Assembly (NCBI GenBank): GCA_000384615.1
Contig: ARQU01000012.1
Coordinates: 1-64,000, forward strand
DNA from: an alpha proteobacterium SCGC AAA536-G10
GTDB taxonomy: Bacteria; Pseudomonadota; Alphaproteobacteria; Puniceispirillales; Marisalimonadaceae
Reading direction: 5' to 3'
Length of the DNA: 64,000 bases
The notes below the pieces were generated by a model. That model worked only from the letters and a program-made list of their open reading frames with translations. It was not told where the DNA came from and searched no databases. Within the stretch, counting starts at the first letter, position 1, and every line of letters starts with the position of its first letter. The translations under genes were made by a program, and so were the position numbers. Of the stretch, positions 4,019 through 10,804 are shown one piece after another.

Positions 4019-6417
4019 AATTTACATGGCATTGGTTGCTTGATCATCTTGAAACAGACAAGAATTTAAACGAAATTGTAGAGATTTTACCTAAACTGGG
4101 CTTGGAAGTTTCTTCGGTAATCAATCTTGCTAAAGACCTCAAGGAATTTATTTCTGTAAAAGTTCTAGAGGTAAAAAAACATCCAAATGCTGATAAACTC
4201 AAGTTATGTAAAGTATTTGACGGAGATAATACATTTAGTGTTGTTTGTGGTGCACCTAATGTAAAAGCCGGAATGATAGGTGTTTTTGCTAATGTTGAAA
4301 CATATATTCCAGGTATAAATTTGATATTAAAAAAAACTAAAATTAGAGGTGAATCTTCTGAAGGAATGTTATGTTCAGAAAAAGAATTAACGTTATCAGA
4401 TAATCATGAAGGTGTCATAGAGCTCCCAAAGGGTTCAAAAATTGGATCGCCAATTGTAGATATTATGGATTTAACTGATCCAATAATTGAAATAGAGATT
4501 ACTCCTAACAGAGGGGACTGTCTAGGCATACGAGGAATTGCTAGGGATTTAGCTGCTGCTGGGATGGGTGTTTTAAAAGATTTAGAAGTAATACAAATTG
4601 AGGGTGATTTTGAAAGTATAATTGATTGGAAAATAGATTTAAATGAAGACAAAAAAAATCTCTGTCCGAAGATATTTGGTAGATCTTTTCAAAATGTAGT
4701 TAATGTAGATTCTCCATCTTGGTTAAAGAAACGTTTATTAGCTGTAGATCAACGTCCTATTTCATCATTAGTTGATATAACTAATTATATAATGATTGAC
4801 ATAGGAAGACCTTTACATGCTTATGATGCAGATAAAATAGTTGGAAACACACTTACAATTAAAGAATCAAAAAAGGGTGAAAAGTTTTTTGCACTCAATG
4901 GTAATGAATATGAATTAGATCAAGGAATGTTGGTAATATCTGACGACCAAGGTATTGATGACTTAGCAGGTATTATGGGTGGAGAAAGGACTAGTGTAAC
5001 AGAACATACTACTAAAATGTTTTTAGAAGCAGCAATTTTTGACCCTATTTCAATTGCAAATACAGGTAGGAAGTTGAATATAAATTCTGACGCCAGGTAC
5101 AGGTTTGAAAGGGGTCTAGATTATGACTTACCAGATTTAGTTATGCACTATGCTGCGTCAATGGTGAATAAAATATGTGGAGGCACTTACAGTAAAATAG
5201 TTAAATTTGAGTTAATTAGAGAAACTAAATCAATTATATTTAATCCTAATAACACTTATAAATTAACCGGTGTAAAAATTGAAAATCAAGTAGCTAAATC
5301 AATTTTAGAAAAATTAGGATTTTTAATAAATGATAAAAACGATATTTGGATTGTAACTCCTCCATCTTGGAGACCTGATATTGATGGTATTTCAGATATT
5401 GTTGAAGAAATTATTAGAGTAAATGGTTATGATTATATACCGTCTACAAAACTACCAAGAAAGAATTATATTGCAAAACCTTCAATGAATATAAAACATA
5501 GACAAACATCTATTGCATCTAAAACATTAGCTAACAGAGGATATAGTGAGGTCATAACATTTTCTTTTATAAATGAAGTGATGGCAAAACAATTTAATGG
5601 TGGTAGCGATACGCTTGTTTTAGTAAATCCAATTTCTTCGGAATTAACTAATATGAGACCCTCAATTATTCCACCATTATTAGGAACTGCACAAAGAAAT
5701 TTAAATTTAGGTATAGACACTTTATCTATATTTGAGGTTGGCCCAATTTTTAAAGGTGATAAACCAGATGATCAGATAAGTAGCATCTCGGGCTTAAGAT
5801 TAGGTAGTAAAGTTAAAAAAGATTGGAAAAATTCTTCGGTAGATTTTGATTTTTATGACGTAAAATTGGACGTTCTGAAGACTCTAGAATCTATTGGTGT
5901 CAATATAAGTAGTCTACAAACTTATGAAAAATCACCAAGTTACTTTCATCCTGGAAGAAGTGCTGTTTTAAAAATAGGACAAAAACTTATAGCTCATATG
6001 GGAGAAATACATCCTGAAATTAATGATTTCTATGGATTCGGAAAATCTACTTTAGCTTTTGAAATCTTTTATGAGAATATACCAGTTCCTAAAAAAGTTA
6101 AAGTTTCCAGGCCTATGCTAAAAATTTCGCCGTTACAATCAGTTATAAGGGAGTTTGCATTCGTAATAGATGAAACAACACCCGCTGAAAAACTAGCTCA
6201 AATTGCGAAATCGACTAATAGGGATTTAATTAAGGATGTTTTAATCTTTGATGTTTATAAAGGTAAAAAAATCCCAGATGGTAAAAAATCAATCGCAATT
6301 AAAGTAATTATTCAACCTAATTTAGAAACTTTAACTGATGATGACCTAGAAAAACTTAGTTCGGATCTGATTAACTTAATTGATACAAAATTATCAGGAT
6401 CTCTAAGATCTCAATAA
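4015..6417 (+). CDS. pheT: Phenylalanyl-tRNA synthetase beta chain
   Basis: Non-catalytic partner of PheS that binds and edits tRNA-Phe. The 800-aa protein shows an EMAP-like tRNA-binding domain (KVLEVKKHPNADKLKLCKV, about 48-66), the B3/B4 editing region (RPISSLVDITNYIM), the B5 domain, a catalytic-like core, and a C-terminal FDX-ACB anticodon-binding domain (SVIREFAFVIDETTP through the end). It overlaps pheS by 4 bases and ends the operon. The tRNA-Thr-derived repeat at 6445 begins 28 bases after its stop, so the gene abuts a recombination site. Confidence 0.97.
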   Translation: MKFTWHWLLDHLETDKNLNEIVEILPKLGLEVSSVINLAKDLKEFISVKVLEVKKHPNADKLKLCKVFDGDNTFSVVCGAPNVKAGMIGVFANVETYIPGINLILKKTKIRGESSEGMLCSEKELTLSDNHEGVIELPKGSKIGSPIVDIMDLTDPIIEIEITPNRGDCLGIRGIARDLAAAGMGVLKDLEVIQIEGDFESIIDWKIDLNEDKKNLCPKIFGRSFQNVVNVDSPSWLKKRLLAVDQRPISSLVDITNYIMIDIGRPLHAYDADKIVGNTLTIKESKKGEKFFALNGNEYELDQGMLVISDDQGIDDLAGIMGGERTSVTEHTTKMFLEAAIFDPISIANTGRKLNINSDARYRFERGLDYDLPDLVMHYAASMVNKICGGTYSKIVKFELIRETKSIIFNPNNTYKLTGVKIENQVAKSILEKLGFLINDKNDIWIVTPPSWRPDIDGISDIVEEIIRVNGYDYIPSTKLPRKNYIAKPSMNIKHRQTSIASKTLANRGYSEVITFSFINEVMAKQFNGGSDTLVLVNPISSELTNMRPSIIPPLLGTAQRNLNLGIDTLSIFEVGPIFKGDKPDDQISSISGLRLGSKVKKDWKNSSVDFDFYDVKLDVLKTLESIGVNISSLQTYEKSPSYFHPGRSAVLKIGQKLIAHMGEIHPEINDFYGFGKSTLAFEIFYENIPVPKKVKVSRPMLKISPLQSVIREFAFVIDETTPAEKLAQIAKSTNRDLIKDVLIFDVYKGKKIPDGKKSIAIKVIIQPNLETLTDDDLEKLSSDLINLIDTKLSGSLRSQ

Positions 6418-6444
6418 TTTGAAAATTCGAAATTTAAGATAAAT

Positions 6445-6496
6445 TGGTGCCGTCAACTGGATTTGAACCAGTGACCTCGTCATTACCAATGACGCG
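6445..6496 (-). repeat. att-like 52-bp direct repeat, left copy (3' part of tRNA-Thr)
   Basis: Bases 6445-6496 are identical to 8718-8769, which are the 3' 52 bases of the intact tRNA-Thr gene including the encoded CCA. The copy lacks the D arm and the 5' acceptor strand, so it is not a functional tRNA. A duplicated tRNA 3' end is the usual footprint of tyrosine-integrase insertion into a tRNA gene. Confidence 0.85.
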
Positions 6497-6757
6497 GAAA
6501 TCATACTCAGAACAGCAATAACACCCATAAATAATCTAGTATAATCAATTAGGTGTCATTAGATTCAAACTTAAGGTGTTAAAAGGTGTATTTTGGCACA
6601 ATTCTGACACACAAATTTACAAACTTTACTTAAATTTGAGATAAAATGTTTAATATTTAAGCTAATTATATATGTAAATTTAAAGTACATTGATTGTAAC
6701 TTCAGTTTACTGTTTTAATTTTATTTAATTAACAAGTTATGTTTTTTGAGTAATGAA
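6497..6757. other. Island left flank, no gene seen
   Basis: This A+T-rich stretch lies between the left tRNA-derived repeat and the regulator gene. It contains TTCTGACACACAAATTT near 6602; a related word, GTGACACAAATTTGACACAG, recurs near 8606 just inside the other end. The pair could be arm-type integrase sites, but this is only an inference. No integrase reading frame is present. Confidence 0.4.
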
Positions 6758-7228
6758 ATGAATATATCTACAAAACCAGTAATTTTAGAAAATTTTGAAA
6801 ACTATTTTTTTCGTCGTACCTTAAAATCTTTGTGTACTTATGAACTAAAAATATATCAAGGCAGAATTGATCGTTTAGACACAAAAATGCAAAGATATTT
6901 TAACTCTACGCCTATTAGAAATGCTTTTGCATCTCTAATGGTGATTGGTGAATGTAATAATAAATCATATACAATTACTGAAATTGTTAACAATCTTAGA
7001 AGTAACAGGCAGTCAATTTCTACAATGGTAGATGAAAGTAAAAAAGAGGGCTGGATAATAGTAAGTAAGAATGGAAATAAAGTTCAATGCAAGGCCTCAG
7101 AGGAATTGGTTAAAGGTTTTCATGATTATATGACATTTAGTAAAGAAATTTCTAAGGATTATTTTAATAGTTTGGAATTACAAAAAATAAAAAATATAAT
7201 GTCAAATGAGTTGTCACAGAATAGCTAA
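6758..7228 (+). CDS. Small winged-helix (MarR-like) regulator, putative
   Basis: The gene encodes 156 aa from ATG 6758; a TTG at 6746 would add four residues. The middle resembles a winged helix-turn-helix: YTITEIVNNLRSNRQSIST as a recognition-type helix pair, followed by a basic wing VSKNGNKVQCKA. I see no ligand-binding motif that would name the ligand. It lies 273 bases upstream of the TRAP binding-protein gene on the same strand, inside the tRNA-Thr-bounded island, so it may regulate that gene. MarR-type assignment is by fold pattern only. Confidence 0.55.
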   Translation: MNISTKPVILENFENYFFRRTLKSLCTYELKIYQGRIDRLDTKMQRYFNSTPIRNAFASLMVIGECNNKSYTITEIVNNLRSNRQSISTMVDESKKEGWIIVSKNGNKVQCKASEELVKGFHDYMTFSKEISKDYFNSLELQKIKNIMSNELSQNS

Positions 7229-7501
7229 TGAATGTAAATCTGTTAGGTATTGTTAATTTATTAATCATTATTTAAATTATAAATTGGAATTTCGAGATGT
7301 ATTTCTTGGAATTCCTCCCTTAATTTTCATAGCAATGTAAAGTTCTTTTACAGTTCTTCTCGTAACTATGTAAAGCTGTAACACATTGTTTCACAACAAA
7401 TCTTAAAATAATATTAACAATTGATTTTGTAAAATATGCAGAATCACAGAGTGAATTTGAAATCATTCAAATTTTTAATTAATCATTTTGGGGAGATCAA
7501 T

Positions 7502-8542
7502 ATGAAATTATTTTTAGGTGCAGCTGTTATCGCTGCGACTAGTTTAGTAGCCATCTCAGCACAAGCTGGTGAAAAGTTACGATATAAAATGCAAAGTACT
7601 TGGGGTAGCCAGGTTGCCATTAACGGTGAAGCTGCTGTTTATTTTTCTAATAAAGTGAAAGAGGTTTCAGGCGGTGATGTAAGAGTGAGATTTCATGAGC
7701 CAAATGCACTTGTACCCTCATTAGAAGTTTGGGATGCTGTTAAGAACGGTTCAGTAGACGCAGGTTTTACATCTCCAGGGTATCACGCTGGAAAAATTCC
7801 AGCTGTTTCGTATTTTGCAGCTGTTCCTTTTGGACCAGGTGGAAGTGAATATATGGGATGGATGGAATATGGTGGTGGAAACCAGCTTAAAGAAAGAATT
7901 TATGGTGACTACGGTCTTATGCCCTTGAATTGTGGTATGCACGCTCCAGAGACTTCAGGTTGGTTTAGAAAGAAAATCAACAAAGTTGAAGAAATGAAAG
8001 GTATGAAAATGCGTTTCTTCGGGCTAGGCGCAATGGTAATGACTAAGCTTGGTGTATCAACACAGTTACTAGCAGGTGGAGATATTTATCCAGCACTAGA
8101 AAAAGGTGTTATTGATGCAACAGAATTTTCTATGCCTACACATGATTTAAGTTATGGTTTTTATCAGTTAGCTAAATATAACTATTTCCCAGGATGGCAC
8201 CAGCAAACATCTATTATTGAGTTGCTTTTAAATAAAAAAGCTTGGAACGGTCTAACAAAAACACAACAGTCAGTTATTAAAACTTCCTGTGATGCGACAA
8301 CAATTTGGACATTTGTTAGATCTGATGCAAAGCAGGTTCCTGCGATGCGTGAGCTTGAGAAGAAAGGCGTAACATTTGTAACATGGCCTGATTCAGAAAT
8401 TGCTAAGTTTAGAAAAGCATGGGAAGAAGTTGTAAAAGAGAAGTCAGCAAGTGATCCTTTATTTAAAGAAATCACTGCTAGCTATGACGCTTTCAGAAAA
8501 GACTACAGCATTTGGTCATCAAAAGCTTATCTAAAAAGATAA
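7502..8542 (+). CDS. TRAP transporter solute-binding protein (DctP family, TakP-like)
   Basis: Periplasmic receptor that would hand an organic acid to a TRAP permease. I place the start at ATG 7502, after GGGGAGAT and directly before a signal peptide (MKLFLGAAVIAATSLVAI, cleavage near AQA-GE); an earlier in-frame ATG at 7436 gives an implausible leader. The mature part has the family segments FHEPNALVPSLEVWDAVKNG, GMKMRFFGLGA and LAGGDIYPALEKGVIDATEF, closest in my judgement to alpha-keto-acid-binding receptors. No TRAP membrane genes (dctQ, dctM) occur in the window, so the receptor is an orphan and must use a remote permease. A strong hairpin terminator follows. Confidence 0.88.
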   Translation: MKLFLGAAVIAATSLVAISAQAGEKLRYKMQSTWGSQVAINGEAAVYFSNKVKEVSGGDVRVRFHEPNALVPSLEVWDAVKNGSVDAGFTSPGYHAGKIPAVSYFAAVPFGPGGSEYMGWMEYGGGNQLKERIYGDYGLMPLNCGMHAPETSGWFRKKINKVEEMKGMKMRFFGLGAMVMTKLGVSTQLLAGGDIYPALEKGVIDATEFSMPTHDLSYGFYQLAKYNYFPGWHQQTSIIELLLNKKAWNGLTKTQQSVIKTSCDATTIWTFVRSDAKQVPAMRELEKKGVTFVTWPDSEIAKFRKAWEEVVKEKSASDPLFKEITASYDAFRKDYSIWSSKAYLKR

Positions 8543-8564
8543 ACTTAATCTTATTGACTATTTT

Positions 8565-8594
8565 AAGCACACCAGTTTTGGTGTGCTTTTTTTT
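8565..8594 (+). terminator. Rho-independent terminator after the TRAP receptor gene
   Basis: AAGCACACC (8565-8573) pairs perfectly with GGTGTGCTT (8580-8588) across a 6-base loop and runs into eight or more T residues. It starts 22 bases after the stop codon. Confidence 0.9.
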
Positions 8595-8717
8595 GTTAAT
8601 AATTTTGTGACACAAATTTGACACAGATAATTTTTATATTTAAAAAATTAAATCATTAGTAAATAACTAATACTTAAAATTTTTAGGAAATAAGTAAGAT
8701 TTTACTTAATCAGAAAA

Positions 8718-8769
8718 TGGTGCCGTCAACTGGATTTGAACCAGTGACCTCGTCATTACCAATGACGCG
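8718..8769 (-). repeat. att-like 52-bp direct repeat, right copy (within tRNA-Thr)
   Basis: Identical to 6445-6496. It makes up the 3' 52 bases of the intact tRNA-Thr gene, so the putative island lies between 6445 and 8717 and the tRNA was restored at this end. Confidence 0.85.
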
Positions 8770-8793
8770 CTCTACCGCTGGAGCTATGACGGC
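8718..8793 (-). tRNA. tRNA-Thr (anticodon GGT)
   Basis: The 76-base minus-strand gene has acceptor pairing GCCGTCA/TGACGGC, an anticodon stem CGTCA/TGACG enclosing loop TTGGTAA (anticodon GGT), a T arm with GGTTCAAATCC, and an encoded CCA end. Its 3' part is duplicated at 6445-6496. Confidence 0.95.
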
Positions 8794-8900: not shown

Positions 8901-9084
8901 ATGAAAAAAAAAAAAAAAATTAGATAATTTATCACTTTCCTTGAAAAAAAACTTAGAATTAAGAAAAAAACAAATTTATGAAAGAGATGATAAAAATATT
9001 ATAGGAAAAAGAACTAACAAAATTGGTATTTCTAGGCTAAATTTAGAAATTAACAAAAATCAGTTTAAATATAATAATGAATGA
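8901..9084 (+). CDS. Small lysine-rich ORF before murA, frameshifted at an A16 run
   Basis: An ATG at 8901 is followed by 16 consecutive A residues. Read literally, the frame stops after eight codons. With 15 (or 18) A residues it opens into a 60-residue basic protein: KLDNLSLSLKKNLELRKKQ, then YERDDKNIIGKRTNKIGIS, ending NQFKYNNE at 9084. It overlaps the murA start by 8 bases, typical of coupled genes. Either the run length is a sequencing error, or expression depends on polymerase slippage, or the gene has just been lost. I do not recognise the family. Confidence 0.45.
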
Positions 9085-10354
9085 TTTTTCAACTTTTAGT
9101 TCTGATAAAATTTATATCAAGGGTGAAAATATTCTTAATGGTAAAGTTAAAATTAGTGGAGCCAAAAATGCAGCTCTGCCTCTTATGGCTTTGTCCTTAA
9201 TTATTAATAAAGATTTCACTTTATATAATGTTCCTGATCTGGTTGACACAAGGTTAATGTCTAATCTTTTAATTGATCTAGGTATAAATCTAAATTGGAA
9301 AAATGGAAAAATTGATTTTAATGGAACTCCAAAAAGAGAAGAAGCTTCATATGATTTAGTTAGAAAAATGAGAGCTTCAATTCTTGTGCTAGGACCTTTA
9401 TTAGCGTCAAGAGGTTTGGCTAAAGTTCCTTTACCTGGGGGCTGTGCAATTGGCAGTAGACCTATAGATTTACATATAATGGTTATGGAAGCTCTTGGAG
9501 CTAAAATTTGTTTTGACTCTGGATTTATAGTTGGGTCATTAAATTCTGATGGTTTGAGAGGGGGAATAATAAATTTTCCTAAAGTATCAGTTGGTGCTAC
9601 TGAAAGTGCAATAATGACTGCTGTATTAGCAAAAGGACAAACAAAAATTACAAATGCGGCTCAAGAACCTGAAATTACTGATTTGGCAAATTGCTTAAAC
9701 AATGCAGGTGCGGATATTAGAGGAGAAGGAACAAACACAATAATAATAAATGGTGTTAATCATTTAAACAAAGTTGAATATGGAGTAGTATCAGACAGAA
9801 TAGAGGCAGGTTCTTTTGCTATTGCATCTAGCTTGACTATGGGTAACGTTGAAATAGATAATATTAACCACAAAAATTTAGATACTTTTTTAAAAGTGCT
9901 AGAATTTACAGGCAGTGAAATTGAAGTTGCAGAAAATTCTATAAAAGTTTTTTCTTCACTGAGACCAAAGCCTTTTGATATTATTACAGAGCCTCATCCT
10001 GGCTTTCCAACTGATCTTCAAGCGCAATATATGTCACTTATGTCTATAGCTAATGGAACAACATTTATAAAAGAAACTATATTTGAAAATAGATTTATGC
10101 ATGTTCCAGAACTCATGAGAATGGGGGCTAAAATTTCTGTGAACAACGAAGAAGCTATTGTTAACGGTGTCGGAAAATTAAAAGGGGCAAAAGTTATGGC
10201 ATCGGATTTAAGAGCGTCAATGTGCTTAATTTTAGCTGCTCTTGCTGCTTCTGGTACAAGTGAGATAGAAGGTGTTTTTCATTTAGATAGAGGGTATGAA
10301 AATTTAGAAGATAAATTATCAAACCTTGGTGCAAATATTAAAAGATCAACGTAG
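9077..10354 (+). CDS. murA: UDP-N-acetylglucosamine 1-carboxyvinyltransferase
   Basis: Transfers enolpyruvate from PEP to UDP-GlcNAc, the first committed step of peptidoglycan synthesis. The 425-aa protein has the two-lobed EPSP-synthase-like fold. The catalytic cysteine is Cys123 in LPGGCAIGSRPIDLH, so it is the Cys-type (fosfomycin-sensitive family) form. Lys in SGAKNAALP (about 30) and the PHPGFPTDLQAQ and DLRAS motifs are present. It is followed by the DUF2948 gene and hisG, a usual alphaproteobacterial order, and overlaps a small frameshifted ORF at its start. Confidence 0.97.
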   Translation: MNDFSTFSSDKIYIKGENILNGKVKISGAKNAALPLMALSLIINKDFTLYNVPDLVDTRLMSNLLIDLGINLNWKNGKIDFNGTPKREEASYDLVRKMRASILVLGPLLASRGLAKVPLPGGCAIGSRPIDLHIMVMEALGAKICFDSGFIVGSLNSDGLRGGIINFPKVSVGATESAIMTAVLAKGQTKITNAAQEPEITDLANCLNNAGADIRGEGTNTIIINGVNHLNKVEYGVVSDRIEAGSFAIASSLTMGNVEIDNINHKNLDTFLKVLEFTGSEIEVAENSIKVFSSLRPKPFDIITEPHPGFPTDLQAQYMSLMSIANGTTFIKETIFENRFMHVPELMRMGAKISVNNEEAIVNGVGKLKGAKVMASDLRASMCLILAALAASGTSEIEGVFHLDRGYENLEDKLSNLGANIKRST

Positions 10355-10381
10355 AATTTAAATTTATCAAATTATAAAAAT

Positions 10382-10804
10382 ATGTCTATTGAAAAAAAAA
10401 TTCGTCTAGCTGTAACTTCTGATGAAGAACTAAAAATATTATCTTCTTTGTGTCAGGATGCTATAGTATCAAAAGAAGAATTTTTTTTTGACAAAAAAAT
10501 GAAGCGTTTTGTTGCAACTTTTTCTAGATATTGTTGGGAAAAAGAAGAAATAAATAATTATAAAAATTTTAATTATAGAGTGGTGTCTGGTATACAAATT
10601 AAAAATGTTGGAAAAATTACTTTGAAGAATTTTAAATCAAATATACCTTTCCTTAATTTGCTATCCATATCATATAGTAAAAAAAATATAACTTTATATT
10701 TTTCAGAGTCTACAGAGATAATTTTATATTGTGAAAAATTAGATATATTATTGGAAGACATTGATGTTCCTTGGCCAACGAAACTTAAACCCAAGCATGA
10801 ATAA
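10382..10804 (+). CDS. DUF2948 family protein
   Basis: A 140-aa protein of unknown function found between murA and the histidine genes in many alphaproteobacteria. Recognisable features are the opening IRLAVTSDEELKILSSLCQDAIV, the KKMKRFVATFSRYCWE segment and the ending EDIDVPWPTKLKPKHE. No catalytic motif, signal peptide or membrane segment is visible. The identification rests on its position plus these segments. It ends 16 bases before the chosen hisG start. Confidence 0.8.
   Translation: MSIEKKIRLAVTSDEELKILSSLCQDAIVSKEEFFFDKKMKRFVATFSRYCWEKEEINNYKNFNYRVVSGIQIKNVGKITLKNFKSNIPFLNLLSISYSKKNITLYFSESTEIILYCEKLDILLEDIDVPWPTKLKPKHE

Follow-up and report, generated by a model that had tools for sequence, protein, structure and literature searches.

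The window, a 64,000-nucleotide stretch of a SAR116-cluster genome (G000:C12; genome 2.16 Mb, ~90% complete), carries an intact tRNA-Thr(GGT) gene and, on the 3' side of this gene, an element of about 2.2-2.3 kb that ends in a second copy of the 3' part of the tRNA (Table 1). The two copies, 6445-6496 and 8718-8769, agree at 52 of 52 bp, the extended match reaching 56 bp at 98%, and a search of the genome with 6400-6520 as the query returned these two matches only. The repeat spans the full anticodon arm (CGTCATT-ACC-AATGACG) and all of the tRNA sequence 3' of the arm; this extent, together with the location of the element 3' of the tRNA, is the pattern expected from integration in a tRNA gene. 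A sequence-only reading had described an exact 52-bp direct repeat from the 3' part of tRNA-Thr, enclosing an interval that lacks an integrase. Both descriptions were borne out, as ARAGORN identified the tRNA and only a regulator-like ORF and dctP were found between the repeats.

Table 1. Features of the tRNA-Thr element and its target gene, in window positions
Feature	Position	Strand	Basis or remark
Distal attachment-site copy, 52 nt of the tRNA-Thr 3' part including the anticodon arm	6445..6496	-	Exact match to 8718-8769
Far end, conserved; ACACC/GGTGT words (6520-6589), single TGACACA (6605-6611)	6497..6620	+	Aligns across five filled sites, one with unrelated cargo
Regulator-like protein, 156 aa, MarR-type winged helix suspected	6758..7228	+	Weak MprA match; AF2 model of low confidence
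DctP, TRAP transporter solute receptor, without dctQ/dctM; variant of the core-genome DctP	7502..8542	+	PF03480, E=1e-43
Intrinsic terminator, probable, after dctP	8566..8594	+	AGCACACCA/TGGTGTGCT stem, then T run, read from the sequence
Double arm-type motif TGACACAAATTTGACACA, tRNA-proximal end	8608..8625	+	Invariant in all five filled sites
tRNA-Thr(GGT), intact; integration target	8718..8793	-	ARAGORN

The two genes had been named as a winged-helix regulator and a TRAP receptor. The receptor was confirmed by its domain match, whereas the winged helix is weakly suggested by a sub-threshold match to MprA (MarR-type; E=0.01) and by an AF2 model from a two-sequence alignment, in which the order of helices and strands fits such a fold at low confidence (pLDDT 41). 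At the same site in G033, G035 and G021, the regulator is 88-93% identical. In the island copy of G035, the regulator gene has at its 3' end a pheT-like coding fragment of ~37 codons (59% identical; L061:5818-5928).

The dctP gene was detected in 31 of the 40 genomes of the genus (E <= 1e-90), outside the island mostly as one copy per genome, and the core orthologues are 84-87% identical to the island DctP in most of the genus. Four core loci were read, where a dctQ-like gene follows dctP and a nucleotide-sugar/uronate-dehydrogenase-like gene is close by (both named by eye). The island copy is the only dctP in the window genome, while G033 has both island and core copies. Most differences between the island and core proteins fall near codons 120-150 and 240-270, and in these two blocks the island DctP of G035 is nearer to the core version. 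Judged from these sequences, the island DctP may be a variant receptor for a TRAP permease already encoded elsewhere.

An island inserted at this tRNA, as the sequence-only reading had it, should show empty sites and other cargo among relatives, rather than the same two genes and repeat fixed in all of them, and both were found. We read the pheT-tRNA-murA interval in 28 same-genus genomes. The site is empty in 23, with pheT, tRNA-Thr and murA separated by clean junctions and a pheT-tRNA gap of 17-34 bp in 22 genomes (among them G004, with a contig that stops within the tRNA); in G061 the gap measures 136 bp. The site is filled in the other 5, which are the window genome, G033 (C4, CABXSI010000004.1), G035 (C11, ATWQ01000011.1), G034 (C8, CACNRW010000008.1) and G021 (C24, QCHB01000024.1). 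Regulator and dctP are both present in the window, G033 and G035; in G021 the regulator is present and the contig breaks just before dctP. In G034 the same ends enclose an unrelated 654-aa lipoprotein-like protein with a caspase domain (PF00656, E=3e-18). A second contig of G021, ending at the same tRNA, carries an 86-aa secreted-type ORF and, at its broken end, a decayed left end of the element (score 118 against the G034 element end vs a maximum of 72 in 300 shuffles). Across this contig break, the G021 site probably holds two units in tandem, neither with an integrase. In the window genome, a caspase-like protein resembling the G034 cargo is encoded on another contig (L128:5142-6554, G000:C13), as part of a tRNA-Arg(TCG) island that has a DUF6538 integrase.

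The ends of the element can be aligned across the filled sites despite the different cargo, by TTAACACCC-AAATAA-TATAATCAATTAGGTGT and CTGACACAC on the left and TGACACAAATTTGACACA on the right. The distance from TGACACAAATTTGACACA to the tRNA is 92-93 bp in all five sites, and among 136 genomes of the order searched this motif occurs in the five filled genomes only, being absent from the 131 others. Its spaced form, TGACACA-N4-TGACACA, is present once in the 64-kb window vs 0 in 100 shuffles. Matches to TATAATCAATTAGGTGT at four further loci were rejected as elements, as they lack element ends and apparently lie inside a coding gene. The distal repeat copy is also intact (52/52) in G033 and G035, and decayed in G021 and G034 (46-52 nt at 88-96%). 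Between the window genome, G033 and G035, the near arm is likewise unchanged (19/19), although identity in the noncoding DNA next to these sequences is 57-93%. The lack of change in repeat and arm suggests that they recombined recently, underwent gene conversion from the tRNA or are under constraint.

The TGACACA words near the inner ends had been proposed to be arm sites, and this proposal gained support from the conservation of the ends across cargoes and from the presence of the motif beside integrase-bearing elements. TGACACA-N4-TGACACA was found in 25 of 40 genomes of the genus and 0 times in reversed-pattern controls, and is a signature of this genus. Most of these copies belong to islands at tRNA-Arg(ACG or TCG), with the order tRNA 3' end, ~69 bp, motif, ~17 bp and the start of a 327-aa tyrosine integrase (PF00589); the other end has a further copy of the motif and a duplicate of the tRNA 3' part. 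Integrase-less versions occur at tRNA-Arg as well: L202 (G014) is 1.9 kb long with a truncated integrase start, and in L208, L209 and L223 the cargo begins directly after the motif. In genomes other than these Alphaproteobacteria, 77 copies were counted, of which 14 are located 3' of a tRNA gene at a distance of up to 150 bp, compared with an expectation of 0.7% of bases; 12 of the 14 have the TGTGTCA sense, as at tRNA-Thr. Several copies in other phyla lie within 80 bp of an integrase ORF. The integrases of other phyla were named by eye from the C-terminal sequence, and those of L241, L284, L298 and L335 by similarity to the 327-aa integrase. We infer from these associations that the motif is a putative arm-type integrase site.

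Further observations were made on these islands. The tRNA-Arg islands L194-L202 and L195 (genomes G021, G008, G009, G004, G001, G016, G063, G023 and G014) are spread across the genus and span 2-7 kb, most with the 327-aa integrase and arms at both ends, and some contain extra internal arm motifs, as if assembled from separate modules. At L203:101-270 (G035:C15), the near and far ends of a tRNA-Arg element are joined with nothing between them, which resembles a microCIME. In several phyla, TGTGTCAAATNTGTGTCA stands beside an integrase near a tRNA (L241, L275, L276, L284, L298 and L335), and is possibly a general arm-site signature.

A search for a helper found no integrase at tRNA-Thr in the five filled genomes and the sister G031. 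The phage-integrase matches in these six genomes lie at tRNA-Arg, Val, Leu, Gly, Phe or Ser, or with no tRNA in the stretch read; this absence is weak evidence because the assemblies of G033, G034 and G035 are 60-80% complete. Neither the tRNA-Thr core nor the left junction of the element gave a match in viral contigs. Since the arm motif is oriented oppositely in the Thr and Arg classes, the tRNA-Arg integrase is no obvious helper.

Insertion and turnover at tRNA-Thr are well supported by these results. We interpret the locus as a non-autonomous, CIME-like integrative element that has kept its att and arm sites and carries a regulator and a variant DctP as cargo, with a probability of about 0.6. 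A circular ancestor would have been integrated by a tyrosine integrase at the anticodon region of tRNA-Thr(GGT), with the result that the tRNA gene took its 3' part from the element, and its original 3' part came to lie at the far end (6445-6496). The integrase would then have been lost from the element, or never carried. As both core sites and the arms (single at 6605, double at 8608) are kept, an integrase from another element, including one newly arrived next to it, could excise or insert it. If the element still moves, the recombinase is probably supplied by another element in this way. With this cargo, the host would gain a second receptor to serve a TRAP permease whose genes lie elsewhere. 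We infer that an integrase binds the arms, that the element can be mobilised and that the cargo has this role. The sequence-only reading had offered two alternatives, a decayed island and a small element mobilised by a helper integrase, and the data are compatible with both.

The strongest rival, which we regard as rather unlikely, is that of a decayed relic. On this view, the ancestor of a small subclade acquired an island with an integrase on a single occasion, the integrase was lost, and the remainder is now passed on vertically, with empty sites and other cargo produced by repeat-mediated deletion and ordinary homologous exchange. The lack of an integrase agrees with this, and so does phylogeny: in a tree built on infC, rplT, pheS and pheT, the five filled genomes all fall in a single subclade, inside which two empty genomes, the sisters G031 and G062, are nested, so that one gain, one loss and a cargo change are enough, although repeated insertion is also possible. 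At fourfold sites, dctP differs from the window by 0.28 (G035) and 0.18 (G033), about as much as the flanking pheT (0.22 and 0.24, respectively), which fits vertical inheritance. In contrast, the regulator differs by 0.06 (G035) and 0.10 (G033) and is, on small counts, nearer between genomes than its flanks are. Also against a relic, the distal 52 bp and the arm are unchanged in three lineages in which the noncoding DNA around them differs by 7-43%; the repeat, but not the arm, could be accounted for by gene conversion with the intact tRNA. The replaced cargo between the same ends in G034 and the probable second unit in G021 likewise argue against it.

It is improbable that the site is simply a homologous-recombination hotspot, in which exchange through the conserved flanking genes pheT and murA swaps the site and carries the end motifs along as passengers. 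Exchange of this kind would fit the neighbouring genes. murA and the next ORF (window 9077-10804) show ~69-73% nucleotide identity between the window or G035 and the sister genomes, forming a lineage of their own, and pheT and hisG on either side show ~87-90%, the two being a gene pair replaced in the window and G035, independently of their neighbours. However, such swapping leaves the tRNA duplication, the common ends beside unrelated cargo and the association of the motif with integrases unexplained. Local duplication can give tRNA fragments, but chance, or a duplication of the tRNA gene unconnected with mobile DNA, is very unlikely, as the exact 52-bp match is confined to the 3' part, empty sites occur and the ends are conserved.

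Beyond the non-autonomous element at this one locus, we put forward as a speculative and doubtful extension that SAR116 bacteria maintain, at tRNA genes, collections of cassettes that lack an integrase but have conserved ends of their own, that integrases of other elements move these cassettes in trans, and that receptor alleles of transporters already present are exchanged in this way. The case matters in showing how genes of streamlined ocean bacteria can be turned over by very small islands that lack a recombinase. TGACACA-N4-TGACACA near a tRNA 3' end offers a searchable marker for such elements, even those without an integrase, and the cargo, a variant receptor whose transporter is encoded at another place in most relatives, makes a concrete case of allele supply by mobile DNA.

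No title or abstract on this tRNA-Thr locus was found in the literature searches made here. We compared the element with known systems. Tycheposons of Prochlorococcus and others are marine, tRNA-bounded elements of 4-200 kb with nutrient-uptake cargo and a tyrosine recombinase (PMC10872708). The tRNA-Thr element is likewise marine and tRNA-bounded with nutrient-uptake cargo, but at 2.3 kb it is too small to be a tycheposon, and 6445-8793 holds no tyrosine recombinase. Helper-dependent elements without their own recombinase are a recognised kind, MITEs and CALINs being described as hitcher elements (PMC11389934); these are also integrase- or transposase-less DNA with recognisable ends, served by a recombinase in trans, but they differ in recombinase type and insertion site, whereas the tRNA-Thr element uses a tRNA gene. 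The tRNA-Arg islands of the same genus resemble it in the tRNA 3' duplication, the TGACACA-N4-TGACACA arms, the small cargo and the existence of integrase-less versions. They differ in the tRNA used, in the intact 327-aa integrase that many of them carry, and in their TGACACA-sense arms ~69 bp from the tRNA, compared with the TGTGTCA sense at 92-93 bp. CIMEs of Streptococcus are att-flanked, lack recombination genes, span 1.2-13 kb with cargo and stand in tandem with other units; by definition they are remnants of ICEs or IMEs (PMC7563491). The tRNA-Thr element is within this size range with its cargo and probably stands in tandem with a second unit in G021. It differs from CIMEs in having no known ICE or IME ancestor, no known conjugation gene and no autonomous element in tandem at tRNA-Thr; an ICE or IME at tRNA-Thr was not found in the genomes examined, and the arm motifs of the tRNA-Thr element are shared with integrase elements. 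Being att-flanked (52-bp duplication, empty sites in relatives) and without recombination or transfer genes, it nevertheless falls, on structural grounds, within the CIME definition of PMC7563491.
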